A stretch of 22,140 bases of DNA, from positions 1 to 22,140 of IMG/VR virus record IMGVR_UViG_3300027800_000211, one strand, 5' to 3'. The stretch comes from a virus. Of this stretch, positions 2,594 to 18,205 are shown piece by piece. Under the pieces are notes generated by a model. The model ran no database searches. It was not told the DNA's origin and was given only the letters and a program-made list of their open reading frames with translations. A program made the position numbers and the translations under genes. Positions within the stretch are counted from its first letter, which is position 1, and every line of letters begins with the position of its first letter.

Positions 2594-2865
2594 TGTGGGA
2601 TTACCGCTTTGTCCCTGTCCGCGACGAATCGTCGGCCCAGGCGCGCGCCTCGGCCAAGGCGATGGCGGCGCAGGTTCAGACCGCGATTGACGCCGGTAAG
2701 GTCCAGGTTCGCCGGATGGAAGGCGACATCCTGATTTCCGGGATCATGAAGCACGCGGCGATCATGACGGCCAAGGCTGTCGGTCGCGGCAACCGGGGCG
2801 GCAACGCGGCGGGCGCGCGGTCTGCGTCGCGTCGGAAGGCTGCCGGAAAGGCGGCGTCATGCTGA
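2593..2865 (+). CDS. small basic hypothetical protein
   Basis: The 90-residue product starts in the TGATG overlap with the previous gene. The N-terminal part begins MWDYRFVPVRDESS and continues as an alpha-beta region; from about residue 60 it turns into an Ala/Gly/Arg/Lys-rich tail, as expected for a protein touching nucleic acid. The family is not recognised. It overlaps the next gene by 7 bp, so all members of this cluster are probably co-translated. Confidence 0.5.
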   Translation: MWDYRFVPVRDESSAQARASAKAMAAQVQTAIDAGKVQVRRMEGDILISGIMKHAAIMTAKAVGRGNRGGNAAGARSASRRKAAGKAASC

Positions 2866-3512
2866 CGATCACCACGGAAACCACTCTGGGCGTGATGGCG
2901 CAGATCATCGGCGCCCGCCGGTGGATGGCCCCGACCTTGCCCGCCGAGTTGATGGCGCAACCGACCTGGTGGTTGCCCGGCGCCACCACCCCGGTGACGC
3001 TCCATGCGGCCTATGAGCTGGCGCTCCGCGAGTTGCACGGGGCCGAGGCTCTGCCCTTGGAGGTCTATGGCCTGCAATGGGCGATGCCGTGCCTGACGCG
3101 GGCGGCTGGGGAGCCTCTGGCGCTGTGGGAATGCACGCCGAAGCGCCGGACGGATCAGGTGCTGAGCCTGTTGGACGACGCGCTGTGCATCGCCAAGGGC
3201 CAGCCGGTGCCGAACACGCCGCGCGTCAAGCATCCCGCCAGCCTGCACGACGTGAAGGCGCGCCTGTCGCTGTCGCCCATCGACGGCGTTGTGTCGCTGG
3301 ACGGCGCGGCGGTCGGCACGATCACGCTGTTGCGCGGGCAGACGCGGCGGGGCGGGTTCGGATCGGTCCTTCAGACCTACCACATCCAGGCTGTCGTCGA
3401 GGGTAAGGAGATCGACCTCGAAACGCACGATCTGGCCTCGGCCAGCCATTGGACGGCGGTGAAGGTGGTTGCGGCCCTGCGTGACGCGATGGCGCGGGTG
3501 GGTGTGAAATGA
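2859..3512 (+). CDS. hypothetical phage protein, 217 residues
   Basis: This is a soluble protein without signal peptide or membrane segment. The N-terminal half is rich in Trp and Pro (for example PTWWLPGATTPVTLH); the C-terminal half holds a beta-rich stretch around LDGAAVGTITLLRG and ends in the helix SHWTAVKVVAALRDAMARVG. I recognise neither motifs nor family. It overlaps the previous gene by 7 bp. Its 3' end lies only 7 bp from an exact copy of the replication iteron found in the initiator gene. Confidence 0.6.
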   Translation: MLTITTETTLGVMAQIIGARRWMAPTLPAELMAQPTWWLPGATTPVTLHAAYELALRELHGAEALPLEVYGLQWAMPCLTRAAGEPLALWECTPKRRTDQVLSLLDDALCIAKGQPVPNTPRVKHPASLHDVKARLSLSPIDGVVSLDGAAVGTITLLRGQTRRGGFGSVLQTYHIQAVVEGKEIDLETHDLASASHWTAVKVVAALRDAMARVGVK

Positions 3513-3518
3513 CGACAC

Positions 3519-3538
3519 CCCCGCAAAATTCTTGCCCC
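3519..3538. repeat. isolated copy of the initiator-gene iteron
   Basis: This 20-bp sequence (CCCCGCAA, then AATTC, then TTGCCCC) is identical to iteron 3 of the array at 14927-14946. A weaker half-match, CCCC followed by AAAGAATCTTTCCCC, overlaps it at 3536-3554. It lies between two early genes, across the likely start of the next one, so a protein binding here could affect that gene's expression. Confidence 0.75.
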
Positions 3539-3864
3539 CAAAGAATCTTTCCCCCCTCCCCGATGACGATGCGGTGGTTCACGGCTGCATTCAGCGCTTG
3601 ATGGGCGCTGGCGGGTTGACCAAAGACATCGCCGGGCCGGTCGCCCAGTTCATGGAAGCGATGGCGCAAACGGGAGACATCACGCCCGACCGGATGCTGC
3701 GCGCTTTGTCCATGGCCGTGTTCGCCCTCGGCGCGGCAGCGGTTGAGAACGCCCATCCGCTGGAAGCGCATCGCCTGCCGATCAAGCTGAGCGAGCAGCT
3801 TGGCAAGGCCGTGTCGGAAGTGGCGCGCTTTTCCGCCGATTGCCACGGGGGCGGAACGGCATGA
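3532..3864 (+). CDS. hypothetical phage protein, start uncertain
   Basis: The product has up to 110 residues. The helical, protein-like part begins near PDDDAVVHGCIQRLMGAGG and continues through GPVAQFMEAMAQTGD to the end. The only start ahead of this part is TTG at 3532, inside the isolated iteron. An ATG at 3509, overlapping the previous stop, is in another frame: it gives MTTPPQNSCPQ and ends at 3601, exactly where an ATG of the main frame begins (TGATG). A one-base change in the C6 run at 3551-3556 would join the 3509 start to the main frame. The true start is therefore 3509 by frameshift or sequence error, 3532, or 3601 by coupling. No family is recognised. Confidence 0.5.
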   Translation: MPPKNLSPLPDDDAVVHGCIQRLMGAGGLTKDIAGPVAQFMEAMAQTGDITPDRMLRALSMAVFALGAAAVENAHPLEAHRLPIKLSEQLGKAVSEVARFSADCHGGGTA

Positions 3865-4589: not shown

Positions 4590-4907
4590 TCACGCTGCGC
4601 GCGGTTGGATTTCGACAAGGTCGGTTGCGGCCAGAGCGGCGACCGACAGATCGTGCAGCGTTTGCAGGTTCATCCAAAATTCCGGGCCGGTGTCGAAATA
4701 GCGGCCCAAGCGCAACGCGGTGTCCGCCGTGACCGGCGTTTCCTCGCGCGCCAGCCGCTCGATGCGCGTGCGAGGAACGCGGCACGCCTGCGCCACGCCG
4801 TAGGGCGTCAAGCCCAAGGGAATCAGGAACTCTTCCCGCAGGATTTCGCCCGGATGCACGGGCGGGTTGGGGCCGATCATGGTGGTACGTTCCCTCACCA
4901 TCGTCAC
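4590..4907 (-). CDS. higA: HigA-family XRE antitoxin-type regulator
   Basis: The 105-residue product carries the HigA/VapI signature HPGEILREEFLIPLGLT at about residues 18-34, a helix-turn-helix with GVAQACRVPRTRIERLARE and the typical end RLGRYFDTGPEFWMNLQTLH. HigA proteins neutralise HigB mRNA interferases and repress their own operon. No HigB gene is adjacent; the partner upstream is brnA, whose stop overlaps this start by 4 bp. It is therefore the third gene of a brnT-brnA-higA operon and may serve as an extra repressor. The family call is confident; the role in this cassette is inferred. Confidence 0.85.
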   Translation of the reverse strand: MTMVRERTTMIGPNPPVHPGEILREEFLIPLGLTPYGVAQACRVPRTRIERLAREETPVTADTALRLGRYFDTGPEFWMNLQTLHDLSVAALAATDLVEIQPRAA

Positions 4908-5194
4908 GGCAGACCGGCGGCGCGGCGCAGGGTTTCGTTGATGCGGGTTTGCCAGCCCGGCCCGGTTTCACGGAAGTGCTTCACCACATCGGCGTCCAGG
5001 CGCAGCTTGATGGCTTCCTTCGTGCTGTCGGATGGCGGGCGACCGCGACGCGCAGGCTTCCCGCCGATGTGCGGTTGCGCCTGTACGAACCATTCCGCCG
5101 TCAGCTCGGGAATTTCATCGTATTCCTCGGGCTGGATGACATGGGAATCGACCTTTTCCAGGTCGCTACCCAAAGCGCGCTTGCTCTCGGTCAT
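4904..5194 (-). CDS. brnA: BrnA-family antitoxin
   Basis: The 96-residue product shows family-like segments: an acidic N-terminus with GSDLEKVDSHVIQPEEYDEI, a basic linker ARRGRPP, and the C-terminal DNA-binding and dimerisation part IKLRLDADVVKHFRETGPGW followed by QTRINETLRRAAG. BrnA binds and inhibits the BrnT ribonuclease and represses the shared promoter. The start overlaps the end of brnT by 29 bp, so translation is coupled. The length is usual for the family. Confidence 0.9.
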   Translation of the reverse strand: MTESKRALGSDLEKVDSHVIQPEEYDEIPELTAEWFVQAQPHIGGKPARRGRPPSDSTKEAIKLRLDADVVKHFRETGPGWQTRINETLRRAAGLP

Positions 5195-5426
5195 TGGCTT
5201 TCCTCATCGAAATGATGTGCCGCGCATCGCCGCGCGGCGTCCACACGATCACCATCATCCGACCGCGCAGATGTCCGACCGTGACGATGCGGGTTTCACC
5301 GTAATCGAAACGATCATCCGGTCGATCCAACGTCGGGCCGATGAACACGTCTGCCGCGTCGGCGAAGTCAATGCCGCGTTCGGTCAGGGTCTTGTCGCGC
5401 TTGGCGGGATCGAACGTGATCTTCAT
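5166..5426 (-). CDS. brnT: BrnT-family ribonuclease toxin
   Basis: The 86-residue product shows the BrnT layout: FDPAKRDKTLTERGIDFADA at residues 5-24, then DRFDYGETRIVTVGHLRGR, and the C-terminal HIISMRKANDREQARF. BrnT is a small ribonuclease that stops growth by cutting RNA and is held in check by BrnA. The ATG at 5426 fits the family length; the open frame continues upstream to 5645, but that part crosses the promoter and operator. The toxin comes first in the operon, as is usual for brnTA. A -10 box ends 7 bp before the ATG, which implies a leaderless message. Confidence 0.9.
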   Translation of the reverse strand: MKITFDPAKRDKTLTERGIDFADAADVFIGPTLDRPDDRFDYGETRIVTVGHLRGRMMVIVWTPRGDARHIISMRKANDREQARFG

Positions 5427-5431
5427 GAGAA

Positions 5432-5485
5432 TTATCGTACCCCCGAGAAACAACCGTGCCAAGCCTTTTTCCGGGGGTACGATAA
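5432..5485. promoter_or_regulatory. perfect inverted repeat at the brnT promoter
   Basis: TTATCGTACCCCCG at 5432-5445 and its exact reverse complement at 5472-5485 lie 26 bp apart. The proximal arm covers the -10 box of the brnT promoter and the distal arm lies just upstream of the -35 box. This is the expected place for a pair of operator half-sites bound by BrnA, the HigA-type protein or both. Confidence 0.7.
5434..5462 (-). promoter_or_regulatory. brnT-brnA-higA promoter
   Basis: Read on the minus strand, TTGGCA (-35, 5462-5457) and TACGAT (-10, 5439-5434) are separated by exactly 17 bp, a good sigma-70-type match. The start point should fall within a few bases of the brnT ATG at 5426, so brnT would be read from a leaderless RNA. 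Confidence 0.65.
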
Positions 5486-5786
5486 ATTCCCGGGGGATTG
5501 GGAAGGCGCCGCCATCACCGTCTTGACAACCGCTGTTTCTGTGGAGCAGTCTCCGTCTTGGAGCTTGAAAACTCTTCAGAGCGGCATGCCGCCCGCGCAC
5601 TCGTGCGATGCGGCTATTTTCATGCCCGGATTCCGTCCGGCGCATCCCCTTTGCCGGGGGTCGGATAATACAATACCCGCAAGGGGAACATTCCGGCCTG
5701 CCTCTGACAGGTTTTCAGCCCCCGGCGCCAGGGCGGTCATGAAAAGCCTCCCTGCGTCGGCAATGCCGTCAGAGGAGGCTTGCGTC
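5486..5786. other. structured gap before the antirepressor-like gene
   Basis: I see no convincing gene in this 301-bp stretch, although the rightward frame stays open throughout it. It holds several self-complementary pieces: GCGGCATGCCGC at 5582-5593, a CCGG-rich fold around 5630-5690 and the hairpin at 5744-5781. The layout, a structured open frame running into an early regulator gene, recalls the region of satellite phage P4 that yields its small immunity RNA. A small regulatory RNA is possible but unproven. Confidence 0.35.
5744..5781 (+). promoter_or_regulatory. hairpin covering the ribosome binding site of the next gene
   Basis: AAGCCTCC (5744-5751) pairs with GGAGGCTT (5774-5781), extended by CTG with CAG across a bulged A and an inner CGGC-AAT-GCCG stem-loop. 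The right arm contains the Shine-Dalgarno sequence GAGGAGG (5772-5778) of the ATG at 5787, so the folded RNA would hide it. An in-frame ATG at 5739 lies just upstream; translation from it would melt the stem. Confidence 0.55.
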
Positions 5787-6593
5787 ATGGACGCAATGCA
5801 ATCGAGCGCGTGCGCGCTCACCACCACCGACATCACCATCATCGACAATGAGCCGCGCGTTACGGACGTGACGCTGGCGGCAGCCTTGGGTTACGCCAAG
5901 GTTCAAGACCTGCGTCAACTTGCAGAGCGTCACCGGGAATCCCTGGAACGGTTTGGCAGAATTTCGACGCACCGTGCGTCGAAAATCGGGCGGGGCCGCC
6001 CCAGCGAAGGAATGGCCTTCAACAAAAAGCAGGCGCTTTATCTGGGCGGTAAGACCGATCTTCCGGCGGGCGTCGAGCTGTTGATCGCCATGGTCGAGGT
6101 GTTCGACGCCGCGACCAAGCCCGCCGCGTCTTCCGTCCCCGATCAAGACTCGTCTCCCTTGGCCCTGCCGATGCGTGGCCAGACGATGACCACCGCCGAC
6201 ATCTTTCACCCGGACGTTCTGGTACAGATCCAGCGGCATGCCCGCTATCTGGCCGAATCATCCATTCCCCGATTGCAGAGCGAGTTGGTTCATCGGCTGA
6301 CCCACGATCTTGCCGGTGGTCGTTTGTGGAATCCCGAGAACGAAATTCTGCGGGTGTCGATCCTCAGTCGGTACAAACCCGGTTCGGAGGACGAAGAACG
6401 CTTCCTGATCGACCAATGGGCTTGGGAGATGGCGCCCGACATTCGCAACGTCGCGATGCGCGAGAACCTGAAAGCGGCGATCACCCCAATCCTGCGCGGT
6501 GCCACGAAAAACGCGGACACCGACAAAGGCCCGGCCAAAGCCGCCTCCGCTCGCAAAGCCATTGCCTCTAACCATGAAGGGGTTGGGCCATGA
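5787..6593 (+). CDS. phage antirepressor-like (Rha/KilA-N-type) protein
   Basis: The 268-residue product has an N-terminal domain (about 15-110) in the style of phage antirepressors: a short strand DITIIDNEPRVTDVTLAAAL, a helical DNA-binding-like part (LRQLAERHRESLERFG) and the MAFNKKQALYLGGKTDLPAG segment before a long helix. The C-terminal half has no motif I can name. Such proteins bind DNA or repressors and tip the phage towards lytic growth. This would suit a repressor lacking a self-cleavage domain. The ATG at 5787 has a strong ribosome binding site held in a hairpin; an in-frame ATG at 5739 is the alternative. It overlaps the methyltransferase start by 4 bp. Confidence 0.55.
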   Translation: MDAMQSSACALTTTDITIIDNEPRVTDVTLAAALGYAKVQDLRQLAERHRESLERFGRISTHRASKIGRGRPSEGMAFNKKQALYLGGKTDLPAGVELLIAMVEVFDAATKPAASSVPDQDSSPLALPMRGQTMTTADIFHPDVLVQIQRHARYLAESSIPRLQSELVHRLTHDLAGGRLWNPENEILRVSILSRYKPGSEDEERFLIDQWAWEMAPDIRNVAMRENLKAAITPILRGATKNADTDKGPAKAASARKAIASNHEGVGP

Positions 6594-8332
6594 TCGCCGC
6601 GCAAGAGACCCTTTTCTCTGCGCCGATGGCGGCGCGTGGGACGGGAGTGAAGATCAATCGCGCTGGCCGTCGGGGCGCTGCGTCGAGCACGCTCCCTAAA
6701 ATTCAGCAGTGGGCGCTGGACGACGCCATCACCGTGGTCCTGTTCGCCGGGCTGGGCGGGGCGTGCCAAGGCCTGGAAGAAGCCGGCATGCCGGTGAACG
6801 TGGCGAACAACCATGATGAGGTGGCCATCGCCGCGCACCAGGCGCTGCACCCGCACACGAAGCACATTCGCGGCGACATCTTCGACGTCGATCCGATCCA
6901 GGCGACGGGTGGTCGACGCGTCAAGGTTCTCTGGGCCAGCCCGGATTGTCGGGACCATTCGGTCGCCAAGGGCGGCGCGCCGCGTTCCGCCCGCGTGCGC
7001 TCGCTCCCCTGGCAGGTCTGCCGGTGGGCCGGAAAAACCAGACCGTCGGTGATCTTCATCGAGAACGTCCGGGAGATTCGCGGCTGGGGTCCGCTGGTAG
7101 CCAAGCGCGACAAGGCGACCGGGCGCGTGTTGAAGCTGGACGGCGCCGTGGCCGCGAAGGGCGAGCGGGTTCCGCGCGAGCAACAGCAGCTCGTAAGGGA
7201 CAAGGCGCGGCAGGGCCGGACCTTTCGCCGCTTTGTCAGCCATCTGAAAGAACTTGGCGCGGCCTATGATGATCGTGACCTGAATTGCGCCGATTACGGC
7301 GTGCCGACCGCCCGCCGTCGCTATTTCGGGGTCGCGCGCTTTGATGGTCAGCCAATCCGCTGGCCGGAACGCACCCACGCGCCGCGCGAAGAGGCGGCGG
7401 CGTTGGGGTTGCTGCCCTGGGCGTCGGCGGCGTCCATCATCGACTGGTCGCAGCCGATGACGAGTATCTTCGAGCGCCGGAAGCCGTTGGCGCCCGCCAC
7501 GTTGAAGCGGGTGGCCAGTGGCCTGAAGCGGTTCGTTCTTGAAACGCAAGCGCCATTCATCGTCCCGCTTTGCCATACGAAAAGCGGCTCCCGCGTTCGC
7601 GACGGAAGACAGCCCCTGCCGACCATAACCACGGCAAAGGGTGGGGAAATGGCTGTTGCGAGCGCGTTTTTAACGATCTTCAACGAGAACAGCCACGGTC
7701 AAAAGCCGGATGAGCCGATCCAAACCATTATGGCGGGCGCGCCGCGCTTTGGCTTGGTCGCTGCTTTCATGGCGCAGCACAACACGGGCTTGGTCGGTCA
7801 TGAGATAGGCGACGCCCTGTCCACGCTGACGACGGCGGGAACTCAGCAGCAAGTTGCGGCGGCGTACCTGGCTGAACTGCGCGGCACATCGACCGCCATG
7901 GATGTTGCTGCGCCCGTGCCGACGCAGACCGCTGGCGGGTTCCACACCGCTGCCGTCGCGGCCTTTCTGACCAAGTATTACGGCGCGTCGGCTGACGGCC
8001 AAGACTGCCGGGACGCCCTGCATTCCCTGTCCACCCGCGACCGTTTCGGCGTCGTCACCGTGACGATCCAGGGTCAGCCCTACGCCGTGACTGATATCCG
8101 CATGCGGATGCTGGCCCCGGCGGAAGCCGCAGCGGCCCACGAGCTGGAGTTGCCGAAATCCATTTGGATCGAGGTCAAGGGGCGTGACGGAAGCGCCGTC
8201 TGGATCGAGCGCGCCCTCACCAAAACCGAACAAATGCGCCTGATCGGCAACAGCGTGCCAAAGCGCATGGCCCGGCTGCTGGCGGTCGCCAACGACGTCC
8301 ACGCCCTGAACCGCCAGATGGCGGCGGAGTGA
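6590..8332 (+). CDS. DNA (cytosine-5-)-methyltransferase
   Basis: The 580-residue enzyme transfers a methyl group from S-adenosylmethionine to cytosine C5 in DNA. Motif I is FAGLGGA (52-58), motif IV is SPDC with the catalytic Cys at 120, motif VI is ENV (158-160), motif VIII is ARRRYF (241-246), and motif X is GNSVPKRMARL near the C-terminus. Motif IV departs from the usual PPCQ and has Arg after the Cys. The region between motifs VIII and X is long and consists of about five degenerate repeats with PLPTITT/ALSTLTT-type cores. The gene starts in a 4-bp overlap with the antirepressor-like gene and is followed by an adenine methyltransferase-like gene. It probably protects phage DNA from restriction. 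No matching restriction enzyme is seen. Confidence 0.93.
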   Translation: MIAAQETLFSAPMAARGTGVKINRAGRRGAASSTLPKIQQWALDDAITVVLFAGLGGACQGLEEAGMPVNVANNHDEVAIAAHQALHPHTKHIRGDIFDVDPIQATGGRRVKVLWASPDCRDHSVAKGGAPRSARVRSLPWQVCRWAGKTRPSVIFIENVREIRGWGPLVAKRDKATGRVLKLDGAVAAKGERVPREQQQLVRDKARQGRTFRRFVSHLKELGAAYDDRDLNCADYGVPTARRRYFGVARFDGQPIRWPERTHAPREEAAALGLLPWASAASIIDWSQPMTSIFERRKPLAPATLKRVASGLKRFVLETQAPFIVPLCHTKSGSRVRDGRQPLPTITTAKGGEMAVASAFLTIFNENSHGQKPDEPIQTIMAGAPRFGLVAAFMAQHNTGLVGHEIGDALSTLTTAGTQQQVAAAYLAELRGTSTAMDVAAPVPTQTAGGFHTAAVAAFLTKYYGASADGQDCRDALHSLSTRDRFGVVTVTIQGQPYAVTDIRMRMLAPAEAAAAHELELPKSIWIEVKGRDGSAVWIERALTKTEQMRLIGNSVPKRMARLLAVANDVHALNRQMAAE

Positions 8333-8338
8333 TCCGAG

Positions 8339-9109
8339 ATGCAGAACCGCACTCATGCCGTGATGGCGCAAAGAACCGAAGCGCGCGACAGCTTGGACGA
8401 CTTCCCCACGCCTCCTTGGGGAACGCGGGCGCTGACCGAGCATGTGCTTTACCGAAAGGACGTGCCGTTTCGTCTGCCGCCTCTGGAGGAACTGGCCGCG
8501 TGGGATCCAGCCGCCAACCGTGGCCACATGGTGCGCCCGCTGCGTGAGTCCTTCGGGTCCGTCATCGCAAGCGACGTCCACGATTATGGCGTTGGGTTCC
8601 CGGTGTCGGATTTCCTGTGGCCGGACGCCCCGCTTGTGAGGCCCGATCTGGTCATCACGAACCCGCCGTTTCGGCTGGCGACGGATTTTGTCCGCCGGTC
8701 GATGCAGGTGTCACGCCTGGGCTGCGCGATGCTGGTGCGCGGGACCTGGATGGAGACGATTGAGCGCTTCAACCTGTTCGCCGACTGCCCCCCGGCGCTG
8801 ATCGCCCAGTTCGCGGAACGCCTGCCGCTGATTGGCGGGTATCTGGCCCGAGAGGCGAGCAGCGCCACCGCCTACGCCTGGGTTGTCTTCCTGCATGGTC
8901 AGACGGATACGCGCTGGCGTCACATCCCGCCCTGCCGCCGCGACCTTGAGCGCCCGGACGATTACCCGGCCTGGGAAGATCAAGCGCGCCTTCTCAGCGC
9001 TGGCCAACTCCAGGGCCTGCTGGACCGCCACACGGACGAAACGTCCAAAGCCAAACCGCACATGCCCGAAACCATCATCCGCGCCGAACTGGCGCGTCGG
9101 GAGTCCTGA
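8339..9109 (+). CDS. phage N6-adenine methyltransferase-like protein
   Basis: The 256-residue product has DFPTPPW at 21-27, typical of phage adenine methyltransferases, a cofactor-site-like DPAANRG at 56-62 in place of the usual DPxxGxG, and the catalytic NPPF at 108-111. It would methylate adenine N6 in DNA. The motif I variant keeps Pro and Gly but lacks the usual Cys/Gly pair, so activity should not be assumed. It follows the cytosine methyltransferase by 6 bp and belongs to the same cluster. Confidence 0.8.
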   Translation: MQNRTHAVMAQRTEARDSLDDFPTPPWGTRALTEHVLYRKDVPFRLPPLEELAAWDPAANRGHMVRPLRESFGSVIASDVHDYGVGFPVSDFLWPDAPLVRPDLVITNPPFRLATDFVRRSMQVSRLGCAMLVRGTWMETIERFNLFADCPPALIAQFAERLPLIGGYLAREASSATAYAWVVFLHGQTDTRWRHIPPCRRDLERPDDYPAWEDQARLLSAGQLQGLLDRHTDETSKAKPHMPETIIRAELARRES

Positions 9110-9110
9110 C

Positions 9111-10259
9111 ATGACGAACGACATCCAACACCCCCAGGCGCAGGCGACTGACGCCCAGGACGCACGCCACACCATCGACAAAGTGACGGGCGATCCAGCT
9201 TTCGCCTCTTTCGAGATTCCCAAGGGCCTGCACCCCAACACTGCCACGCTGGTCCGCGACTTTGCCGAGGCGATGGCGAAGAAGCTCCGCGCCTCCGAGA
9301 TCAAGTATGGCTGGACGGCCAACTGGATGCGCAAGGGCTGGCGTGACGGACTGGCGGTCGAGTTGCTGCGCTACGTCCACAAGGGCGACCCCATCGACGT
9401 GGCCGCCTATGCCGCCTTCGCTTGGTTCCATGGGTGGAGCGTCGCCCCGGTCGCTGCGTCCGCCACATATGGCGGGCAGGTGGCGATCATTGCTCCCTAC
9501 ACCGACGAAGAAGGACTCCTCGATCCGGACATGGTCGGTCTGGTCATGCTCGCCATCGGTCGCCCCGACGAACTCGCTGAGCATGTGCTCGACCGTATCC
9601 CGGCTGGCGCTGCTGATATAATCCGACAGCACTCCGAAGCGCAGGCGACGGAGATCGTGCGGCTAAAGGACGCCCTCGAAGCGGATTACGACTTGGTGAC
9701 GCGGGAGCTGGCCGAGCGGACGGCTGAATTCGTTGCCATGAAGGACCGCGCCATCAAGGCCGAAGCGCCGCTTGCGGCCCTTTCGGGTTGGAAGCTGGTT
9801 CCGATCACACCGACGCAAGACATGCTGATGGCTGGTGTTGACCGGCCCCAGCCCGATCCGGCTGATCCCCGCGATCACGAATGGGGAGGGATGTACCGGG
9901 CGATTTACGGCGCGATGCTGGGGGCTTCTCCGTCCCCTGATCGTGTCGTGACGGCGCTGGCCCAGATCGACCGGGCGCTTGGTCAAGGTGAAGCTGTCGC
10001 GACGAACTGTGTCGTTGCAGACATCGACAAGCACAAGCTCGCCCTTCTGGCGCAAATCCCCGGACTGATCGGCCAAGACATGGCGGAACAGGAATTTGCC
10101 CCGGTGATGAGCAACCGGATTTGGAGCGTCCTGGCCGAGATGCCTGACATGGTCGAGATGCACCAGCGGTTTGCGCCAATCGTCAACGGCTGTCTGGGCG
10201 TTGGGTTCGTTCGGCTTACCGATGCCGGTCGGGCCGCGATTTCAGAGGGAGCGCAGTGA
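9111..10259 (+). CDS. dATP/dGTP diphosphohydrolase-like phage protein
   Basis: This 382-residue protein is modular. Residues 48-110 resemble the N-terminal domain of phage dATP/dGTP diphosphohydrolases (MazG-like): KKLRASEIKYGW, then the RKGWRDGLAVELLRYVHKGD block and DVAAYAAFAWFHGWS. Residues 175-220 form a likely coiled coil (LKDALEADYDLVTRELAERT). From 227 on, WKLVPITPTQDMLMAG and YRAIYGAML match a C-terminal module shared by many phage proteins. The first domain in related proteins removes pyrophosphate from purine dNTPs and can reshape the nucleotide pool. The metal-binding acidic residues could not be checked by eye. It starts 2 bp after the previous gene and ends in a TGATG overlap with the next. 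Confidence 0.6.
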   Translation: MTNDIQHPQAQATDAQDARHTIDKVTGDPAFASFEIPKGLHPNTATLVRDFAEAMAKKLRASEIKYGWTANWMRKGWRDGLAVELLRYVHKGDPIDVAAYAAFAWFHGWSVAPVAASATYGGQVAIIAPYTDEEGLLDPDMVGLVMLAIGRPDELAEHVLDRIPAGAADIIRQHSEAQATEIVRLKDALEADYDLVTRELAERTAEFVAMKDRAIKAEAPLAALSGWKLVPITPTQDMLMAGVDRPQPDPADPRDHEWGGMYRAIYGAMLGASPSPDRVVTALAQIDRALGQGEAVATNCVVADIDKHKLALLAQIPGLIGQDMAEQEFAPVMSNRIWSVLAEMPDMVEMHQRFAPIVNGCLGVGFVRLTDAGRAAISEGAQ

Positions 10260-10858
10260 TGGCCGACAACACGATAACTCTACTGCCCTGCCCGATGTGC
10301 GGCAACCGGGGAATCTTCGTGGAACGCGAAGACCTGTGCGCCTACCAAGCGCGTTGCGATGACTGCGGCGCTCGCGGCCCCGTCGTGGAGCATGGCGATT
10401 ACATCGAGGATGACGGTCGTGGCGTTGACGCCGCCCGTGCCGCCTGGAACCGCCGCCACCCCCAGGACAACGAGACCAAGATCGCGGCGGAGCAGGTGGC
10501 TCCCGTCGCGTGGCTGTGCGAAGACCAAATCCTCCCGGGCCGCAACATCACGCAGGATTCCCACCACGCAGAACGGAGAGCAGCGGCGCTGCACGAAGGC
10601 AAGCCCGCATGGCGCGTTACGCCGCTCTATGCCGCCCCGCCCGCGTCTGCGTGGGTGTCGATTGCCGAGGCCCCCAAGGATGAAGGCCTGGTGCGGGTTG
10701 GATGGCCCGGAGGATCGTGCAACAGCGTTTACGGCATTGCCTACGTTGATGAACTCCGGGTCGAAGGCTGGTTGGACGACGACGACCTTCTGCTGACGCC
10801 GCAGCCAACGTTTTATCACCCGTACCCCGCACCTCCGGGCGCAGAGGGCGGGCGATGA
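10259..10858 (+). CDS. Lar-like zinc-ribbon protein with DUF551-like C-terminus
   Basis: The 199-residue product begins with a zinc ribbon, CPMCG (Cys11, Cys14) and CDDCG (Cys33, Cys36), ending in AARAAWNRRH, as in Lar-type restriction alleviation proteins. A middle module (PVAWLCEDQ to RVTPLYAAPP) and a C-terminal segment starting WVSIAEAPKDEGLVRVGWPG resemble the modular phage add-ons of the DUF551 type. Lar proteins moderate host type I restriction, often by favouring methylation of phage DNA. Here it lies among three methyltransferase-like genes. ATG 10259 is chosen over GTG 10256 for its TGATG overlap. The zinc ribbon is clear; the function is by family analogy. Confidence 0.65.
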   Translation: MADNTITLLPCPMCGNRGIFVEREDLCAYQARCDDCGARGPVVEHGDYIEDDGRGVDAARAAWNRRHPQDNETKIAAEQVAPVAWLCEDQILPGRNITQDSHHAERRAAALHEGKPAWRVTPLYAAPPASAWVSIAEAPKDEGLVRVGWPGGSCNSVYGIAYVDELRVEGWLDDDDLLLTPQPTFYHPYPAPPGAEGGR

Positions 10859-11364
10859 GGCTGAAACGCGTTCTCGACCCATGCTGCGGAAGCCGCATGA
10901 TGTGGCTCAACAAAGAAAATCAGGATGTTGTTTTTGGAGATTGTCGCTCCGAAACCATCATCGTTACTGACCGCTCACATGGAAACGCCAGCGGCACCCG
11001 CAAGCTTCTTATCGAACCCGACACGCTTCTTGACTTTACTGCGCTGCCTTTCAATGACGGGACTTTTAAGCTGGTTGCGTTTGACCCCCCGCATTTGGTG
11101 AAAGCCGGGCCAAAAAGCTGGTTGGCAGCCAAATATGGAAAGCTGTCCGAAGACTGGCAGGACGACTTGCGCAAGGGCTTCGCAGAGTGCTTCCGCGTAC
11201 TTGATGACCATGGCGTGCTGGTCTTCAAGTGGAATGAGACGCAAGTGAAGCTGCGGGAAGTTCTCGATTTGGCTCCTGTCGCTCCACTTTTCGGTCATCC
11301 GTCCGGGCGGAAGGGACTGACCCACTGGCTCGTTTTCATGAAGCCGTCGCGCCCGAAGGACTGA
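10855..11364 (+). CDS. SAM-dependent methyltransferase-like phage protein
   Basis: The 169-residue product carries DPCCGSR at residues 8-14 (cofactor-binding motif I) and FDPPH at 76-80 (motif IV of amino-methyltransferases), with the C-terminal strand pair VLVFKWNE and THWLVFMK. This matches small class I methyltransferases found in phage early regions; the substrate may be DNA adenine or cytosine N4, but it is not shown. The gene is visibly richer in A and T than its neighbours (for example around 10910-10930 and 11040-11070), suggesting separate acquisition. It overlaps the Lar-like gene by 4 bp. Confidence 0.75.
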   Translation: MRLKRVLDPCCGSRMMWLNKENQDVVFGDCRSETIIVTDRSHGNASGTRKLLIEPDTLLDFTALPFNDGTFKLVAFDPPHLVKAGPKSWLAAKYGKLSEDWQDDLRKGFAECFRVLDDHGVLVFKWNETQVKLREVLDLAPVAPLFGHPSGRKGLTHWLVFMKPSRPKD

Positions 11365-11368
11365 ACCC

Positions 11369-12079
11369 ATGACTGAACCCTGCATCATCGAAACCCCGTG
11401 GGGCGTTGACGTCGAGGCGCTGGCCCGGCGTGACGATCAAGGCTGTCCGGTGATGACGTATGGCCATCCGGCGCTGGCCATCGTCTGGGGCATCCATTCG
11501 CCGGAACAGCGCGCCAGCTTCGTTCTGGACGCGGAGGACGCCGAACGGAACGGCGCGGCCCCTGACGCTCTGCACGCCCTGGTTATCCGCTATGCCGGAC
11601 GACAGGCGCAGCGGATCAAACTGCCGCCGCCTTCGCCGCCGCTGTACCCGATCCTGTGCAAGCAGCTCACCAAGCAGGCGTCGCGCGCTCTGGATTCCTG
11701 GTGTCACCGCGTTGCGGATCGCGCGGGTTGGCGCGCCCGCTCCGCTGACCTTCTGGTGCTGCTGGACGTGATGCTGGCCGCTGGCGCTCGCCCTGGCCCG
11801 TCCCGGTGCGAGGAACCGGCGGCGCTGGGGTCTCACATCGCGCGGACCCTGACCGCTGTTCTGGAGCATCTGGGCGACACGGAGGTGACGCGCATTGAGC
11901 AGGCGGCTTTTTACGCCATCACGGACCATCCGAAATGGCGGGCTGTTGGTCGGGAGTGGGCTGGGGATTGCCGGACGACATGGTGGCGGGATTGGATCGC
12001 CGCCCGCCCAGCCTACCGCCGCGCCGCCGAGTTGGCCGGGCTGCACCATGGCGTCCCTGATTGGCTGTGGAGGCTGTGA
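11369..12079 (+). CDS. hypothetical phage protein, 236 residues
   Basis: This is a soluble protein rich in Ala, Arg and Trp. It begins MTEPCIIETPWGVDVEALA, continues with a region around HPALAIVWGIHSPEQRASF and a helical C-terminal half ending in ELAGLHHGVPDWLWRL. No motif or family is recognised. It lies 4 bp after the methyltransferase-like gene and its stop overlaps the start of the DUF1064 gene (TGATG). Confidence 0.6.
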   Translation: MTEPCIIETPWGVDVEALARRDDQGCPVMTYGHPALAIVWGIHSPEQRASFVLDAEDAERNGAAPDALHALVIRYAGRQAQRIKLPPPSPPLYPILCKQLTKQASRALDSWCHRVADRAGWRARSADLLVLLDVMLAAGARPGPSRCEEPAALGSHIARTLTAVLEHLGDTEVTRIEQAAFYAITDHPKWRAVGREWAGDCRTTWWRDWIAARPAYRRAAELAGLHHGVPDWLWRL

Positions 12080-12558
12080 TGGGCGGCGGAAGACACGGGC
12101 GCGGTGTGTCGGTGCTGACGCTTGGCGCGCTGGCTCTGCGGCAGGTTGACGCCTTCCTGTTCGCCGAGCGTGAGCGGGACCGGCTGCGCGCTGAACGGAC
12201 CGGGCAGAAAGCGGCCAAGCCGAACGCCAAGCGGAACAAATACGGGGCGGTTCCGACCGAAGTGGACGGCATCCGCTTCGACAGCAAGGCCGAGGCGACG
12301 CGCTACGCTGAGCTTCGCCTGTTGGAGTGGTCTGGCGAAATCGCCGGGTTGGAGCTTCAGCCCGCGTTCCCCATTGAAATCAACGGCATCCGGGTTGCCG
12401 TTTACATCGCCGATTTCCGCTACCGCGTGGTCGCCACGGGCGTCCAGCGGATTGAGGACGTCAAATCATCTGCCACGCGGACCCCTCTGTACCGGCTGAA
12501 AAAGAAGCTGGTCGAGGCGGCTTACCCTGGCGCCACCATCATTGAGGTTGGGCTATGA
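12079..12558 (+). CDS. DUF1064-family nuclease-like protein
   Basis: The 159-residue product shows the DUF1064 layout: NKYGAVPTEVDGIRFDSKAE, RYAELRLLEWSGEIAGLELQ, YIADFRYRV, IEDVKSSAT and YRLKKKLVEAAYPG, ending in IIEVGL. This is a PD-(D/E)xK-like pattern with candidate active residues in FDSKAE, YIADF and EDVK. Family members are predicted phage endonucleases of the Holliday-junction resolvase type. It precedes the replication genes, where a nuclease for recombination or branch processing would fit. ATG 12079, in a TGATG overlap, is preferred to an in-frame start at 12061. Function is inferred. Confidence 0.75.
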   Translation: MGGGRHGRGVSVLTLGALALRQVDAFLFAERERDRLRAERTGQKAAKPNAKRNKYGAVPTEVDGIRFDSKAEATRYAELRLLEWSGEIAGLELQPAFPIEINGIRVAVYIADFRYRVVATGVQRIEDVKSSATRTPLYRLKKKLVEAAYPGATIIEVGL

Positions 12559-13238
12559 GCACGGGAGGAATCGCCGCTGAGCGGCTGAAATCGTTCGTCA
12601 CGCGGATCCGTAATCTGCGGGCGGAGGTCAAGGGCATCCAGGCGGACGTGAAGGAGGTCTTCGCCGAAGCCAAGGGCACCGGGTTCGACACCAAGATCAT
12701 CCGCCAGATCATCACCTACATGGACAAACGGGAGGAAAACGCCGCCGCCTTGGCAGAGCAAGAGGCTCTGTTCGACCTCTACAAGGAGGCAATGGGCTTT
12801 GGCGAAGGCGCTGGCACGAACCCGGACATCCCGCTCAACCCGCGCCCGGTGAAGGGCAAGGGCAACAAGGGCGCTGCCGATCCCGCTGACGACCAGCAGA
12901 CGGACATTGAGGATCATCTGTCGGGCCGCAAACGCCCCGACGCGCCACCCACGCCCCCCTCAGCCCCCGATGCTGTGACCAAGGATGAAGCCACAGCGCT
13001 GGGGAAGACAGCCGGTGAGGCCGGTGTTCCGCTGGCCGACAACCCGTTTGCCGCAGGCGACCCCAACCGGGCCGCGTGGGATGCTGCGTGGTGTGCGGCG
13101 ACCGGCAGCGACGGCATGGACCTGCCGCCCGAGTTGCGGCGCGGTGGCGCGAAGAAGGGCGGCAAGAAGCCGGGCAAGCCGGGCGGCTCCGCGTCCGGCT
13201 CATCCGGTGGTGATGACGCGACGGGCGGAGAGGGTTGA
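12555..13238 (+). CDS. GapR (DUF2312)-domain protein with RMF-like tail
   Basis: Residues 5-80 match GapR/DUF2312: AAERLKSFVTRIRNLRAEVK, IQADVKEVFAEAKGTGFDTK, then IIRQIITYMDK and EQEALFDLYKEAMG. GapR is a chromosome-structuring protein of Alphaproteobacteria that binds overtwisted, A+T-rich DNA ahead of replication forks and stimulates topoisomerases. A disordered linker follows, then NPFAAGDPNRAAWDAAW at 163-179, which resembles the short ribosome-modulation-factor-like motif found in phage proteins. The tail is a Gly/Lys/Ser-rich stretch. Free-standing GapR is about 80-90 residues, so this 227-residue form is a fusion. It sits at the start of the replication block. It overlaps the DUF1064 gene by 4 bp. 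Confidence 0.8.
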   Translation: MSTGGIAAERLKSFVTRIRNLRAEVKGIQADVKEVFAEAKGTGFDTKIIRQIITYMDKREENAAALAEQEALFDLYKEAMGFGEGAGTNPDIPLNPRPVKGKGNKGAADPADDQQTDIEDHLSGRKRPDAPPTPPSAPDAVTKDEATALGKTAGEAGVPLADNPFAAGDPNRAAWDAAWCAATGSDGMDLPPELRRGGAKKGGKKPGKPGGSASGSSGGDDATGGEG

Positions 13239-13240
13239 CC

Positions 13241-14143
13241 ATGGCAGACGCGTTCAAACCCACCAGGACGATTCGGCAGTTCGCTGAAATCCTGTACCCG
13301 CGCGATGCTGAGGCCCCGATCCTGGATCAACCGATCCGCGCCGCTCTGCGCCAATGGATGATCGAGCTGGATGCGGCGGACGAGCTGGCGGCGGTGGGGA
13401 TCAAGGCGCGCCGCACGGCGCTGATGTTTGGGCCGCCTGGATGCGGCAAGACGACGATGGCGCATCATCTGGCCGCCCGCCGAGGATTGCCCTTGATCGT
13501 GGTCAACATGGCGTCGTTGCAAAGCAAGTATGTCGGCGAAACCGGCCAGAACGTAAACGCGCTCTTCGACGATGTGATCGCTCAGGCTGATAGTTGCATC
13601 CTGTTCCTGGACGAATTTGACAGCATCGCGGCTAAGCGCACCGACGTAACCCATTCGACGGACGCCAACCGAAACAGCGTTGTCATCGCGCTGCTTCAGA
13701 TGATCGACGCCTTTCCCGGAACGTTGCTGGCTGCCACCAACCAGGGAGACGGGATTGATCCGGCGATCTGGCGGCGCTTCGGTATGCACCTACAAATCCG
13801 CGAACCGGACGACGAATGCCGCTACGCGATCCTGACGCGCTACCTGAAGCCCTACATCCTGCCTGACGAGGCCATGGATGAGCTTTGCGACGCGACGGCG
13901 GGAGCCTATCCGGCCCTGCTGCGGCAGTTGATGGAGGGGATCAAGCGGGACCTCGTCATCAGCCCGAAGATTCCTCAGGCGACGGACGTTGCGTCGGTGA
14001 TGAGCCGGGCGATTGCGTCGGTGCGGCCTCATTCGGAAAGCACGCTGCCACCGCTGTGGGGAGATGCCGCCGCGCTGGCCCGCATCAAGAAGATCGCATG
14101 GCCGCCGACGCGCAGCGACGCCAATGACCAGGGGGGGCGCTGA
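13241..14143 (+). CDS. AAA+ ATPase
   Basis: The 300-residue product holds one AAA+ module: Walker A GPPGCGKT (64-71), an aromatic pore-loop-like SKYVGET (95-101), Walker B ILFLDEFD (120-127), sensor 1 ATNQ (165-168) and arginine-finger candidates Arg178-Arg179, followed by a helical lid. The pore-loop type points to a ring that threads protein or DNA, like the classical katanin/FtsH clade, rather than to a DnaC-like loader. The start has a good GGAGAGGG site. It lies in the replication block, between the GapR fusion and the initiator, so it may remodel the replication complex; this is inference from position. Confidence 0.85.
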   Translation: MADAFKPTRTIRQFAEILYPRDAEAPILDQPIRAALRQWMIELDAADELAAVGIKARRTALMFGPPGCGKTTMAHHLAARRGLPLIVVNMASLQSKYVGETGQNVNALFDDVIAQADSCILFLDEFDSIAAKRTDVTHSTDANRNSVVIALLQMIDAFPGTLLAATNQGDGIDPAIWRRFGMHLQIREPDDECRYAILTRYLKPYILPDEAMDELCDATAGAYPALLRQLMEGIKRDLVISPKIPQATDVASVMSRAIASVRPHSESTLPPLWGDAAALARIKKIAWPPTRSDANDQGGR

Positions 14144-14145
14144 CA

Positions 14146-14388
14146 ATGCAAACGAGCGCATATCGTCGTTTGGCGCTGGCGGGACTTCGCCTGACCAAGC
14201 GCGCCGGTCTCATCCTGTTTTGGTCGTGCTGCGGGATCTTCGCGTTCGTTGCGTGGATGTCCTGGAGTGACGGGGCGCAGATCGGTTCCGCCATTTTCGC
14301 GGGCGCGCTGCTCATCGCCGACGCTCTGCCGGGCATGGTCGTCATCGTCATCGTCAACGGCAAGACGTTGCCCAACCGGGAGGGATGA
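14146..14388 (+). CDS. small membrane protein, two predicted spans
   Basis: The 80-residue product has a basic N-terminus and two hydrophobic segments, about 21-40 (GLILFWSCCGIFAFVAWMSW) and 48-70 (SAIFAGALLIADALPGMVVI). This suggests an inner-membrane hairpin. It starts 2 bp after the AAA+ gene. I recognise no family; it could be a superinfection-exclusion or holin-type protein, but the position inside the replication block does not support lysis. Confidence 0.5.
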   Translation: MQTSAYRRLALAGLRLTKRAGLILFWSCCGIFAFVAWMSWSDGAQIGSAIFAGALLIADALPGMVVIVIVNGKTLPNREG

Positions 14389-14390
14389 CC

Positions 14391-14594
14391 ATGCCGCAAG
14401 CTTCTGCTGAGACGGTTCTGAGAGCCGCCCAGCCCATTCTGGACCTGATCGAGCGGATGGAGGCGGGATGGCATCGGACGCCGTCCTGCCCCCGTTTCCC
14501 GCGCCGGGCGGCGGTGACGCTGCTGTCCACCGGCGGGGTTACCACCGAAACCGCAAAGGCATGGCGGGCCTACAAGGCCGCGCAGGGGGTGTGA
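14391..14594 (+). CDS. small hypothetical protein, 67 residues
   Basis: The ATG at 14391 has GGGAGGG (14378-14384) at a proper 6-bp distance, whereas the in-frame ATG at 14385 touches that sequence; the later start is therefore preferred. The N-terminal helix (SAETVLRAAQPILDLIERME) is followed by a basic region with SCPRFPRRAAVTLLSTGG. No family is recognised. It lies immediately upstream of the replication initiator. Confidence 0.5.
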   Translation: MPQASAETVLRAAQPILDLIERMEAGWHRTPSCPRFPRRAAVTLLSTGGVTTETAKAWRAYKAAQGV

Positions 14595-14595
14595 C

Positions 14596-15666
14596 ATGGC
14601 CTATGGCGCTCTGGATGATATGATTTGGCTGTCGTCGCTGCGCAGCACGCCCAAGCTGGTGCTGTTGCGCTGCGCCTGCTATGCCCAGCGTGACGGCAGC
14701 GGCGTCTTTCCGTCCGTCCCGGCGCTGGCCTCGGCCTGCTCGGCGACGCTGCCCACGATCCGCAGCGCCATCGCCGATCTGGTCGCCCTGGGCGTGCTGG
14801 TTCTGGTCGCGAAGGAAGACCCCGTGACGCATCGGCCCCGTGAATACCGGATCGATCTGGATCGTCTGGAGGCGATGATTCCCCCCGCAAATCGCTTGCC
14901 CCACCCCCGCAAGGAATTTGCCCCATCCCCGCAAAATTCTTGCCCCACTCCCCCGCAAGAAATTTGCCCCATCCCCGCAAACGGTTTGCGGGGGGAGGGG
15001 AATGTCGTCGCCTTCCCCCCGCAAAATTCTTTCCCCATCCCCGCAAATAATTTGCCCCATCCCCGCAAAAATTTTGCGGCTGAAGAGCTTAAAGAAGAAA
15101 AGCTAAAAGCTAAGCTTGAGCTTAAAGCTGATGGGATGGAAGGAACGGGCGCATCGCTGACCAGCGTGTCGGCGATCATCGCGGCGTTTGAGGAAGCGCG
15201 GGTGGTGGCGTTCGGGGAGGGGGCCCGCCGAACCCGTCCCGCCGCGACCGACGAGGCGGTTGCGGCTGAGCTGATCGAGGCCGGGGCCGACCTGCACCTG
15301 TGCGAACATGCGTTCCTGACGGCCCAGCAGCGTTTGGCCGACACCGGCAAGCCGCCCATCGACGCGCTGAAATGGTTTTCAAACCGGATCAAGGAGTTGG
15401 TCTCCGCGCAGGCTGCCGGGTACCCGGACGTTCGGCTGACCGCCGGGGGGCGGGCGACGGTTTCCGTGGCCGCTGCGCCCGCCGCCCCGGAGCCGCAATT
15501 CGGACGGAGTTCACCGGCTGCCCGGCAGGTCTGGCGGATGCGGTTGGGCGGCTTTGCGAAATCGAAAACGTGGCTCCCGTCCTGGGGTTCGCCGCCCAAC
15601 GAGCGCGGTTGTGAGGCTCCTTCCGACCTGATCGCCGAAATCCTGCCTGAACCCGCGCTGCTGTGA
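14596..15666 (+). CDS. lambda-O-like replication initiator
   Basis: The 356-residue product has a winged helix-turn-helix at about residues 5-90, with KLVLLRCACYAQRDGSGVFP and SVPALASACSATLPTIRSAI, as in phage O-type and primosomal N-terminal domains. Residues 96-162 are an unusual low-complexity Pro/Asn/Arg/Lys stretch (PHPRKEFAPSPQNSCP), dictated by DNA iterons in the gene. A charged helix (LKEEKLKAKLELK) and a C-terminal domain from about 178 follow, ending with an aromatic patch around KTWLPSWGSPP. By analogy with lambda O it would bind the iterons inside its own gene and recruit host helicase. No phage DnaB or DnaC homologue is seen in the window. The initiator role is inferred from domain plus iterons. 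Confidence 0.7.
   Translation: MAYGALDDMIWLSSLRSTPKLVLLRCACYAQRDGSGVFPSVPALASACSATLPTIRSAIADLVALGVLVLVAKEDPVTHRPREYRIDLDRLEAMIPPANRLPHPRKEFAPSPQNSCPTPPQEICPIPANGLRGEGNVVAFPPQNSFPIPANNLPHPRKNFAAEELKEEKLKAKLELKADGMEGTGASLTSVSAIIAAFEEARVVAFGEGARRTRPAATDEAVAAELIEAGADLHLCEHAFLTAQQRLADTGKPPIDALKWFSNRIKELVSAQAAGYPDVRLTAGGRATVSVAAAPAAPEPQFGRSSPAARQVWRMRLGGFAKSKTWLPSWGSPPNERGCEAPSDLIAEILPEPALL
14883..15079. repeat. eight palindromic iterons: probable replication origin
   Basis: Eight copies of CCCCGCAA-N4/5-(T)TTGCCCC start at 14883, 14905, 14927, 14951, 14973, 15017, 15039 and 15061. Spacings are 22, 22, 24, 22, 44, 22 and 22 bp, so one unit is missing in the 44-bp step. Copy 5 (14973-14993) is a perfect 21-bp palindrome and copy 8 holds a perfect 17-bp palindrome (15063-15079). 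A 22-bp period moves one base per copy against the codons, so the repeats are kept at DNA level, not for the peptide. The initiator gene contains them, as lambda O contains its origin. Confidence 0.8.
15081..15130. other. A+T-rich stretch next to the iterons (candidate unwinding element)
   Basis: Of these 50 bases 32 are A or T, in strong contrast to the GC-rich surroundings. The stretch follows the last iteron at once and contains GAGCTTAAAG twice (15085-15094 and 15118-15127) and several AAGCT units. Its place matches the A+T-rich unwinding region beside the lambda O iterons. Confidence 0.6.
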
Positions 15667-15674
15667 GACGACCG

Positions 15675-16664
15675 ATGAAACACGCCGTTCAGACCGTCCG
15701 CGTTCTGCCAGTTCCCGACGCCCCCGCCATGCTGTCGGTGACGCTGACCGTTGCGGTTTCAGCGACCCGCCGCGCCGATCTGCCGGATGTCTTCACGGCT
15801 GAACTGGAGCAGGGCGGTCGCGTCGTGACCCGCCGCCATTTTCGGGAAGGGAGCGAAGGGCCGGAGGACGTCACCGATCTGGTTGCCGAAATCCTGCTGG
15901 AGCGCGCCCGCCGCCGGGTTGACGGCGAGCGTGGTCGGCAAGCGGAGCAGGTGGCGCGCGTCGGCGCTGTGTCGCCGGAGCGTCATCGCCGTGACGTGGT
16001 GGTCGAGGGAACCATGCGCGCTGGTCAGTCCAGGGCGCGGGCATTGACGGCCTTGGCCACGCTCAACGGGCGTGGGCTGCTGACCATGCGGCAGTTCGAG
16101 GCGGGCGACCGATTGGGGCAGGACGCGAAGGTGGTTGCGGGCGCGCGTGACGCCAGCGACGATGAGGACGTGGGGGGCGGAGGAGGAAGCGGCCTGACGG
16201 TGGATGGCGGGCGGTCGTGGGAGGATTTCGCCGTCGCTGCCGCGATGCGGATGGATGCGGCGCGGCGGGCTTGCCAGGACGCCGGAGCGTTCGACGGCGC
16301 GTCCGTGTGGGGTATGGTCGAGGCGGTGGTCTTGCGCGAGGCGACCTTGACCCAAGCCGCCGGAGGTACGGCGCGGTCGGTGCAGCGTCGCGCCAAAGCG
16401 GCGTTGCGGGTGGGGCTGGAGGCGGTTGGCGATGTCTATGGCTTGCGGCCTGACGTGACAACCACGCAGGTGCTGGCCGATGGAATGCCGGTCCCGCTGG
16501 TGTTTTGCGAGGATCGCGACGGCTTGGACCGGAACGAGGCGTTGCGCGCGCAATTCCGAGCGGTGTCTTTGGGTGGTCGGCGGTGGCGCGCGGTCGCGGA
16601 CACGATGAGCGAATTGTACGCGGCGGCGCGGGTGGAGTTGCGCAGCCGCGCAAATACCGCTTGA
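15675..16664 (+). CDS. DUF6456-like phage protein, candidate late regulator
   Basis: The 329-residue product has a beta-rich N-terminal part (MLSVTLTVAVSATRR region). A central region follows, with RARALTALATLNGRGLLTMR and FEAGDRLGQDAK, then a Gly-rich linker. The C-terminal helical part resembles the DUF6456 style: SVWGMVEAVVLREATLTQAA, then RSVQRRAKAALRVGLEAVGD. This has the look of a sigma-like or helix-turn-helix region. It is the last gene before a promoter and terminator that precede the lysis and head genes, the position of antiterminator Q in lambda. A GTG at 15663 is the alternative start. The domain likeness is by eye; the late-regulator role rests on position. Confidence 0.55.
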   Translation: MKHAVQTVRVLPVPDAPAMLSVTLTVAVSATRRADLPDVFTAELEQGGRVVTRRHFREGSEGPEDVTDLVAEILLERARRRVDGERGRQAEQVARVGAVSPERHRRDVVVEGTMRAGQSRARALTALATLNGRGLLTMRQFEAGDRLGQDAKVVAGARDASDDEDVGGGGGSGLTVDGGRSWEDFAVAAAMRMDAARRACQDAGAFDGASVWGMVEAVVLREATLTQAAGGTARSVQRRAKAALRVGLEAVGDVYGLRPDVTTTQVLADGMPVPLVFCEDRDGLDRNEALRAQFRAVSLGGRRWRAVADTMSELYAAARVELRSRANTA

Positions 16665-16709
16665 CCCGTGAATATGACATCGTTACTTTTCTGATACGGT
16701 GTGTATAGA
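16662..16709 (+). promoter_or_regulatory. promoter-like sequence before the late genes
   Basis: TTGACC (16662-16667) lies 17 bp before TACTTT (16685-16690), and a better -10 box, TATAGA, preceded by TGTG, lies at 16704-16709. The region is A+T-rich relative to its surroundings. Either box would start RNA only a short distance ahead of the terminator at 16726-16760. It is a candidate late promoter; the exact boxes are uncertain. Confidence 0.4.
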
Positions 16710-16725
16710 CACGACCGAAGAGAAT

Positions 16726-16760
16726 AAACCCCGTCCCATATTCATGGCGACGGGGTTTTT
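16726..16760 (+). terminator. intrinsic terminator upstream of the late genes
   Basis: AAACCCCGTC (16726-16735) pairs perfectly with GACGGGGTTT (16749-16758) around a 13-nt loop and is followed by further T residues to 16760. It is the clearest rho-independent terminator in the window. It would stop early transcripts and any short RNA from the promoter just upstream. Confidence 0.85.
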
Positions 16761-16780
16761 CGTATTCAGGGTTCCCTCTC

Positions 16781-17011
16781 ATGCCCTTGCGCGACCGCCC
16801 ACAAGCCTACGCCCGAACGGTGGACGGCAAGGTGGAGCTGGTCATCTGGCGGCGTGGTCGCCGCTTCGTCCTGCCCATCCTGCTCGATGATCCTCTGGGT
16901 CTTGCCTGTGACCTCGTTGAAGCCTATCGCGAAGCCATCGCCGGTCAGCCTGATCCGGTGCGCCCCTACGCTCGCGCCGCTGGCGCGCACCCCACACGTT
17001 CCGAGGACTGA
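16781..17011 (+). CDS. small hypothetical protein, 76 residues
   Basis: This is the first gene after the terminator. The N-terminal half is strand-like (DGKVELVIWRRGRRFVLPIL), the second half a helix (LGLACDLVEAYREAIAGQ) and a Pro/Ala/Arg tail. There is no membrane segment. No family is recognised. The ribosome binding site is weak. It is followed 3 bp later by a holin-like gene, so it may belong to the lysis or late operon. Confidence 0.5.
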   Translation: MPLRDRPQAYARTVDGKVELVIWRRGRRFVLPILLDDPLGLACDLVEAYREAIAGQPDPVRPYARAAGAHPTRSED

Positions 17012-17014
17012 CCC

Positions 17015-17344
17015 ATGGCCGCTGATCCCAACCCCGATCTGATCCAGGCGGCCAAGCCGCTGCTGCCGTCCCTGCTTGGGGTTGTCTTCGGCATGTTCGC
17101 GCGGTGGTCCCGCGAGGCCAAGGCGGGCCGGGTCAAGTCGTTCCGCCGCATGATGCTGCTGGACCTACCGACGCTTGGCGCGCTGACGCTCGCCGCTGGG
17201 TCAGTCGCGCAGCGGATGGACGCCGACCCGCTCACGACGGCGGGAATTGGCTGCGCCGCCGGGTACGTGGGCATTGAGGTCCTCAACGCATTTGTGTCGT
17301 GGCGGCTCAAGGGCGTGGCTGCGCCGACGCAGGGACGGGGTTGA
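17015..17344 (+). CDS. holin-like membrane protein
   Basis: The 109-residue product has three hydrophobic segments: about 20-31 (LLPSLLGVVFGMFARW region), 49-64 (LDLPTLGALTLAAGSV) and 76-94 (AGIGCAAGYVGIEVLNAFV). A basic patch (REAKAGRVKSFRRM) lies between the first two and the C-terminus is charged. Size and layout resemble LydA-type phage holins, which open the inner membrane for lysis. Its place just after the late terminator fits a lysis gene. No endolysin or spanin gene is next to it, which weakens the call. Confidence 0.5.
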   Translation: MAADPNPDLIQAAKPLLPSLLGVVFGMFARWSREAKAGRVKSFRRMMLLDLPTLGALTLAAGSVAQRMDADPLTTAGIGCAAGYVGIEVLNAFVSWRLKGVAAPTQGRG

Positions 17345-17346
17345 CC

Positions 17347-17631
17347 ATGGCCATCCAGCCCCCGTCTCGGAGCATCGCCGACGCGGCTGCCGTCACAGAA
17401 TCAACCGCCCGCGCCATCGCCAAGCGGACCCTTCGCGCATCGATCTTCGGCGATCCGGCTCGCAACGCCGCCTGCAACGCGGCCATTGCCGAGGCGGGCG
17501 TTGATGATCCCGTTCCGCTCTACAGCGAGGCGGAGATCGCCCGGCATGTCGAGATGTCCTGGCCGCTCGTCGCTCGGATGATTGAGGCCAGGGAGATCGC
17601 GGCGGATGGTGAGGTGGGGTTCGGGCGATGA
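17347..17631 (+). CDS. hypothetical protein with helix-turn-helix-like end
   Basis: The 94-residue product starts 2 bp after the holin-like gene. Two helical parts are visible: IADAAAVTESTARAIAKRT near the N-terminus and SEAEIARHVEMSWPLVARMI near the C-terminus, each resembling a helix-turn-helix. It may bind DNA. The family is not recognised. It overlaps the next small gene by 4 bp. Confidence 0.5.
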   Translation: MAIQPPSRSIADAAAVTESTARAIAKRTLRASIFGDPARNAACNAAIAEAGVDDPVPLYSEAEIARHVEMSWPLVARMIEAREIAADGEVGFGR

Positions 17632-18109: not shown

Positions 18110-18205
18110 GGGGGGGCAATCCCCGCAAGGGGTTAGGGCGTCCACCGGCTGGGAGTAAAATTCCTGCGCGTGCAAAATGAAAACAAAAGGGTCCGGAGGC
18201 TGAAA
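18110..18205. other. gap between HNH and terminase genes, candidate cos region
   Basis: This gap holds G runs followed by CCCC-GCAA-GGGG (18121-18132), a stem with a GNRA-type tetraloop, then an A-rich stretch and the GGAGG site of the small terminase gene. In many HK97-type phages with an HNH-terminase pair the cohesive-end site lies here. No cut site can be read from the sequence alone. The half-motif CCCCGCAA is shared with the iterons, probably by chance. Confidence 0.3.

Follow-up and report, generated by a model that had tools for sequence, protein, structure and literature searches.

We found that one of the replication-origin iterons of this phage is also present, unaltered over its full 20 bp, far outside the origin and beside the border of two early genes, and this outlying copy is both genuine and unusual. 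The window analyzed here, meaning the whole stretch of DNA under study, corresponds to a complete 22,140-base record in IMG/VR. Direct comparison confirmed the identity reported in the initial annotation: positions 3519–3538 (+ strand; CCCCGCAAAATTCTTGCCCC) are identical at 20/20 nucleotides to positions 14927–14946, the third unit of the origin array, in the same orientation as in the array and 11,408 bp away from it. When both strands of the window were scanned for CCCCGCAAN5TTGCCCC with at most two mismatches, matches were found at 3519 and at seven sites within 14883–15080, and at no other place in the window on either strand, so within the window the motif is otherwise confined to the array, as had been claimed; dinucleotide-shuffled versions of the window gave a mean of 0.14 such matches. 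Between the array and the remainder of the window, the longest exact match runs to 20 nt, as compared to 10–15 nt in 400 order-3/order-5 Markov simulations, and with a simulated maximum of 15 nt the earlier judgment that chance is an unlikely source holds.

The array itself spans 14883–15080 (+), where eight 20-bp units, all on the + strand and mostly 22–24 bp apart, start at 14883, 14905, 14927, 14951, 14973, 15017, 15039, and 15061 and follow CCCCGCAAN5TTGCCCC with variations. The core GCAAnnnnnTTGC forms a dyad in nearly all of these units, and one of them, CCCCGCAAACGGTTTGCGGGG (14973–14993), is a perfect palindrome that matches on both strands. The array is contained in a gene of 356 codons (14596–15666, +) that matches phrog_270, phrog_391, phrog_678, and phrog_8540 (replication initiation/O-like; best E 1.8e-9) and, weakly, Pfam HTH_36; the iterons encode the proline-rich linker of its product. 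Because the array lies within an O-like initiator gene, the name "origin iteron" originally given to the repeat is sound. Directly adjoining the array is a stretch (15081–15135) with 62% AT, as opposed to about 36% in the window (GC 64.5%), which is a candidate unwinding element. With an O-like initiator, iterons within its coding sequence, and an adjoining AT-rich stretch all present, this is, as judged from the sequence, lambda-type origin anatomy. As to a helicase loader of the P or DnaC type beside the initiator, the next gene (15663–16664) has no PHROG match, and an AAA ATPase gene (13235–14143) is located upstream of the initiator gene. Farther upstream, 1.4 kb before the initiator gene, 12555–13238 (+) encodes a GapR-like DNA-binding domain (residues 7–81) followed by a long tail, part of which (residues 145–179) is weakly RMF-like.

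Phage lambda is among the closest known systems. The iterons of lambda gene O (ITN1–4, 39034–39118 of J02459) are, as here, near-palindromic repeats of about 20 bp within an HTH initiator gene, and in both origins the repeats stand in one orientation and are followed by an AT-rich stretch, with eight units in the window and four in lambda. However, the final 20 kb of the lambda genome, the part surrounding O, show no outlying copy, whereas the window phage has one, 11.4 kb from its origin.

The perfect copy is overlapped by a degenerate second unit, CCCCCAAAGAATCTTTCCCC (3535–3554, +), which shares four C residues with the first, matches the unit at 15017 at 16/20 positions, and keeps all invariant columns of the iteron family; since this second unit ends at 3554, that position had aptly been chosen as the end of the site. 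Apart from these, neither the remainder of the window nor the first 20 kb of the sister record described below contains a + strand 20-mer scoring above 15 against the array. The offset between the two units is 16 bp, compared with mostly 22–24 bp within the origin array, and because the spacing is 16 bp and not 22 bp, the second unit would lie on another helical face. The mini-array stands between two copies of a 7-bp direct repeat, ATGACGA (left copy 3509–3515, right copy 3563–3569, both +), and a 7-bp repeat at exactly such a distance occurs at 15 of the approximately 22,000 positions of the window. The ATGACGA flanks suggest, but do not prove, that 3516–3562 is a displaced mini-array copied from the origin array.

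Auxiliary (inc) iterons that lie outside the minimal origin and are able to bind the initiator are known from plasmids P1 (incA) and F (incC), where they make up longer arrays near rep and have demonstrated effects on copy number. By analogy, the site in the window could be likened to these plasmid iterons in that the origin repeat recurs at 3519, beyond the minimal origin; several well-formed, regularly spaced units, in contrast, are absent there. Instead of a longer rep-adjacent array, there is one perfect and one degenerate unit at a distance of 11.4 kb.

The site is located about 2 kb into a presumed rightward early operon, amid tightly packed genes that stand behind a divergent pair of ORFs (1015–1527, −, and 1546–1752, +). 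Family searches, including PHROG, returned no match for the former, and the latter has a weak Cro/C1-type HTH match; by position and size the pair look like a repressor/Cro switch. Neither the early gene upstream of the site (2859–3512, +) nor the one downstream (3532–3864, +) matched a family. The initial annotation placed the site between two early genes and across the start of the second; the first part of this description stands, and the second is only partly certain, as the downstream gene could start at TTG 3532 (within the iteron), GTG 3574, or ATG 3601. Its frame, which differs from that of the upstream gene, is open from 3508, and its coding signal is weak until about 3565 and strong from about 3595, so the iteron repeat may lie in a short intergenic gap. 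An ATG at 3509 overlaps the stop of the upstream gene; its frame closes soon and is not that of the downstream gene. A promoter scan of the site, which used the sigma-70 consensus only, found nothing, and the RNA structure at the site was no more stable than that of shuffled sequences.

Several other features of the record were noted. A Crp/Fnr-type regulator with cNMP-binding and Crp-type HTH domains, which may be of either host or phage origin, is encoded at the left end (82–672, −), and a BrnT toxin, a BrnA antitoxin, and a HigA-type antitoxin form one overlapping antisense cassette (4590–5435, −). The phage early region also contains a match to Rfam sRNA-Xcc1 (RF02221, 61 bits; 5653–5734, +), which falls within a segment (5560–5778) whose nucleotide sequence matches a plasmid of Azospirillum lipoferum at 83%, and three DNA-methyltransferase-like genes (6590–8332, 8339–9109, and 10855–11364, all +) lie in one early region.

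Bacterial genomes seldom contain the motif: exact CCCCGCAAN5TTGCCCC occurs twice in 385 alphaproteobacterial genomes, which serve as a proxy for the host. By this proxy a dispersed host repeat was rejected, the motif being near absent from these genomes. A search of viral and genome collections with the array pattern likewise yielded no true array beyond that of a sister phage, and the three genome-contig matches fell on poly-C or at unrelated sites. The exact 20-mer is found in two further IMG/VR records, once in the array of the sister phage and once alone, inside an unrelated gene of a record without an array (L005). The sister record (G001; 39,640 bp) is 100% identical to the window over 4809–22140, and its contig, the only relative found, ends at window position 4809, within the higA-like gene of the toxin-antitoxin cassette, and thus does not reach the outlying copy. 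Searches for relatives of the initiator returned the sister phage only, or weak matches. No relatives of either flanking early gene were found in viral contigs; the upstream gene had none in phage records, and the downstream gene had only a weak match (E 0.006) in the 385 genomes.

To place the copy among similar phages, we surveyed some 20 further O-type genes that contain internal repeats, obtained from a phrog_270 search of the 385 alphaproteobacterial genomes and from two phage-genome searches, each with 11–60 kb of DNA and mostly from partial genomes. An outlying copy was counted at a threshold of at least 17/18, and the procedure also recovered the lambda iterons in J02459. Two loci call for care, the BK5-T array being of low complexity and doubtful and the repeats of L067 being spread over the gene end. 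Approximately 18 of the other O-type arrays had no outlying copy nearby, and only one locus, L080, did. At 6089–6106 of L080, which is a prophage or phage locus, CCTGCTCAGATTTGAGG is a near-exact copy (17 nt exact) of the iteron in the O gene of L080 and lies 3.4 kb away from the array there; 1 of 400 simulation runs for this locus reached 17 nt. By the same test, both L080 and the window phage thus carry a copy of their own O-gene iteron in the early region, but the L080 copy is single, 17 nt long, inside an early gene, and on the strand opposite to the initiator gene, whereas the window copy is 20 nt long and at a gene border. The coding strand of L080 reads LKSEQ both at the outlying copy and at the array. 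Outlying copies are uncommon among the surveyed O-type loci, and because only L080 among some 20 loci has a comparable copy, they are not a general design.

Our preferred reading, which we hold tentatively and at somewhat less than even odds, is that 3516–3562 represents an auxiliary initiator-binding site that arose by duplication and perhaps serves as a local roadblock or feedback site. Almost as likely is an inert relic: microhomology-mediated template switching or recombination would have carried a piece of the array into the early operon, and this piece, although it may still bind the initiator, would be decaying with no selected role. The degenerate second unit and the spacing broken to 16 bp would be expected of a relic, and the ATGACGA repeat that exactly bounds the segment, the ATG at 3509, and the lack of an outlying copy at nearly all other surveyed loci point in the same direction. 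However, all 20 bp of the first unit are still intact, though such a length tells little about age, and the 7-bp repeat could be a coincidence. Because a perfect unit is found at an early intergenic spot where a bound protein would matter, we slightly favor a weak local regulatory site over a relic; the broken spacing calls for caution about such a role.

The remaining explanations are considerably less probable. One could envision that the initiator bridges 3519 and the array, within one DNA molecule or between two, and holds back origin firing much as auxiliary iterons do in certain plasmids, but we consider this improbable. The repeat is identical at both sites, handcuffing of iteron plasmids has been described (PMC4857107), and titration and handcuffing by extra iterons have been discussed for lambda (PMC3349717); that lambda study, however, concluded that handcuffing cannot account for the iteron-dependent inhibition that it examined. 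Moreover, one and a half units offer little for a bridge, and remote sites are absent from most surveyed O-type phages. An assembly artefact, with the part to the left of 4809 misjoined or the 20-mer carried over, is more doubtful still. The only other record of the phage stops at 4809, leaving none to corroborate the left part, but the second unit and the spacing differ from those of the array, which argues against plain carry-over, and the occurrence of one repeat in both parts speaks in itself for their belonging together. Iterons at 3519 might also be taken as a sign of a second replication origin, which we rejected as very unlikely because the AT-rich element beside the origin array (62% at 15081–15135, compared to 36% at 3555–3610) is absent and the full array is replaced by fewer than two good units. 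Scarcely credible is a chance match aided by C-rich coding sequence: both copies have a frame reading PQNSCP, but the Markov simulations, the dinucleotide shuffles, and the 385-genome count led us to reject it.

For an auxiliary initiator-binding site, the evidence comprises the exact 20-nt match, its 16/20 neighbor, the rarity of the motif, the O-like gene, the position in the early operon, and the parallel in L080. Evidence against a regulatory role comes from the approximately 18 other arrays without a copy, the different helical face of the second unit, and the absence of a promoter-like site at 3519 in the sigma-70 consensus scan. Such a site would most likely have originated through illegitimate duplication of a short piece of the array within the initiator gene, which would have left the early operon with a displaced mini-array made up of a perfect and a degenerate copy of the phage's own iterons. 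Given the identity of all 20 bp, the O-like initiator would be expected to bind the perfect unit about as well as unit 3. As the initiator accumulates, the bound site could, with less certainty, hinder early transcription or the start of translation at 3510–3600, and it could likewise take up some initiator and so exert weak negative feedback. Unless it is bound tightly, one site alone would make a weak roadblock. Looping to the origin would be possible, though not needed.

How early replication and early expression are shut off in O-type phages is debated even for lambda. It is conceivable, although we think it unlikely, that some temperate O-type phages, such as the window phage and perhaps L080, carry, within the early operon, a second and remote binding site through which the initiator shuts down early expression or pairs with the origin, ending early replication. 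If true, a remote initiator site in an early operon would constitute a simple feedback loop that could be tested by a few base changes. If the copy is only a relic, it would indicate that origin iterons can be copied to new places in phage genomes.
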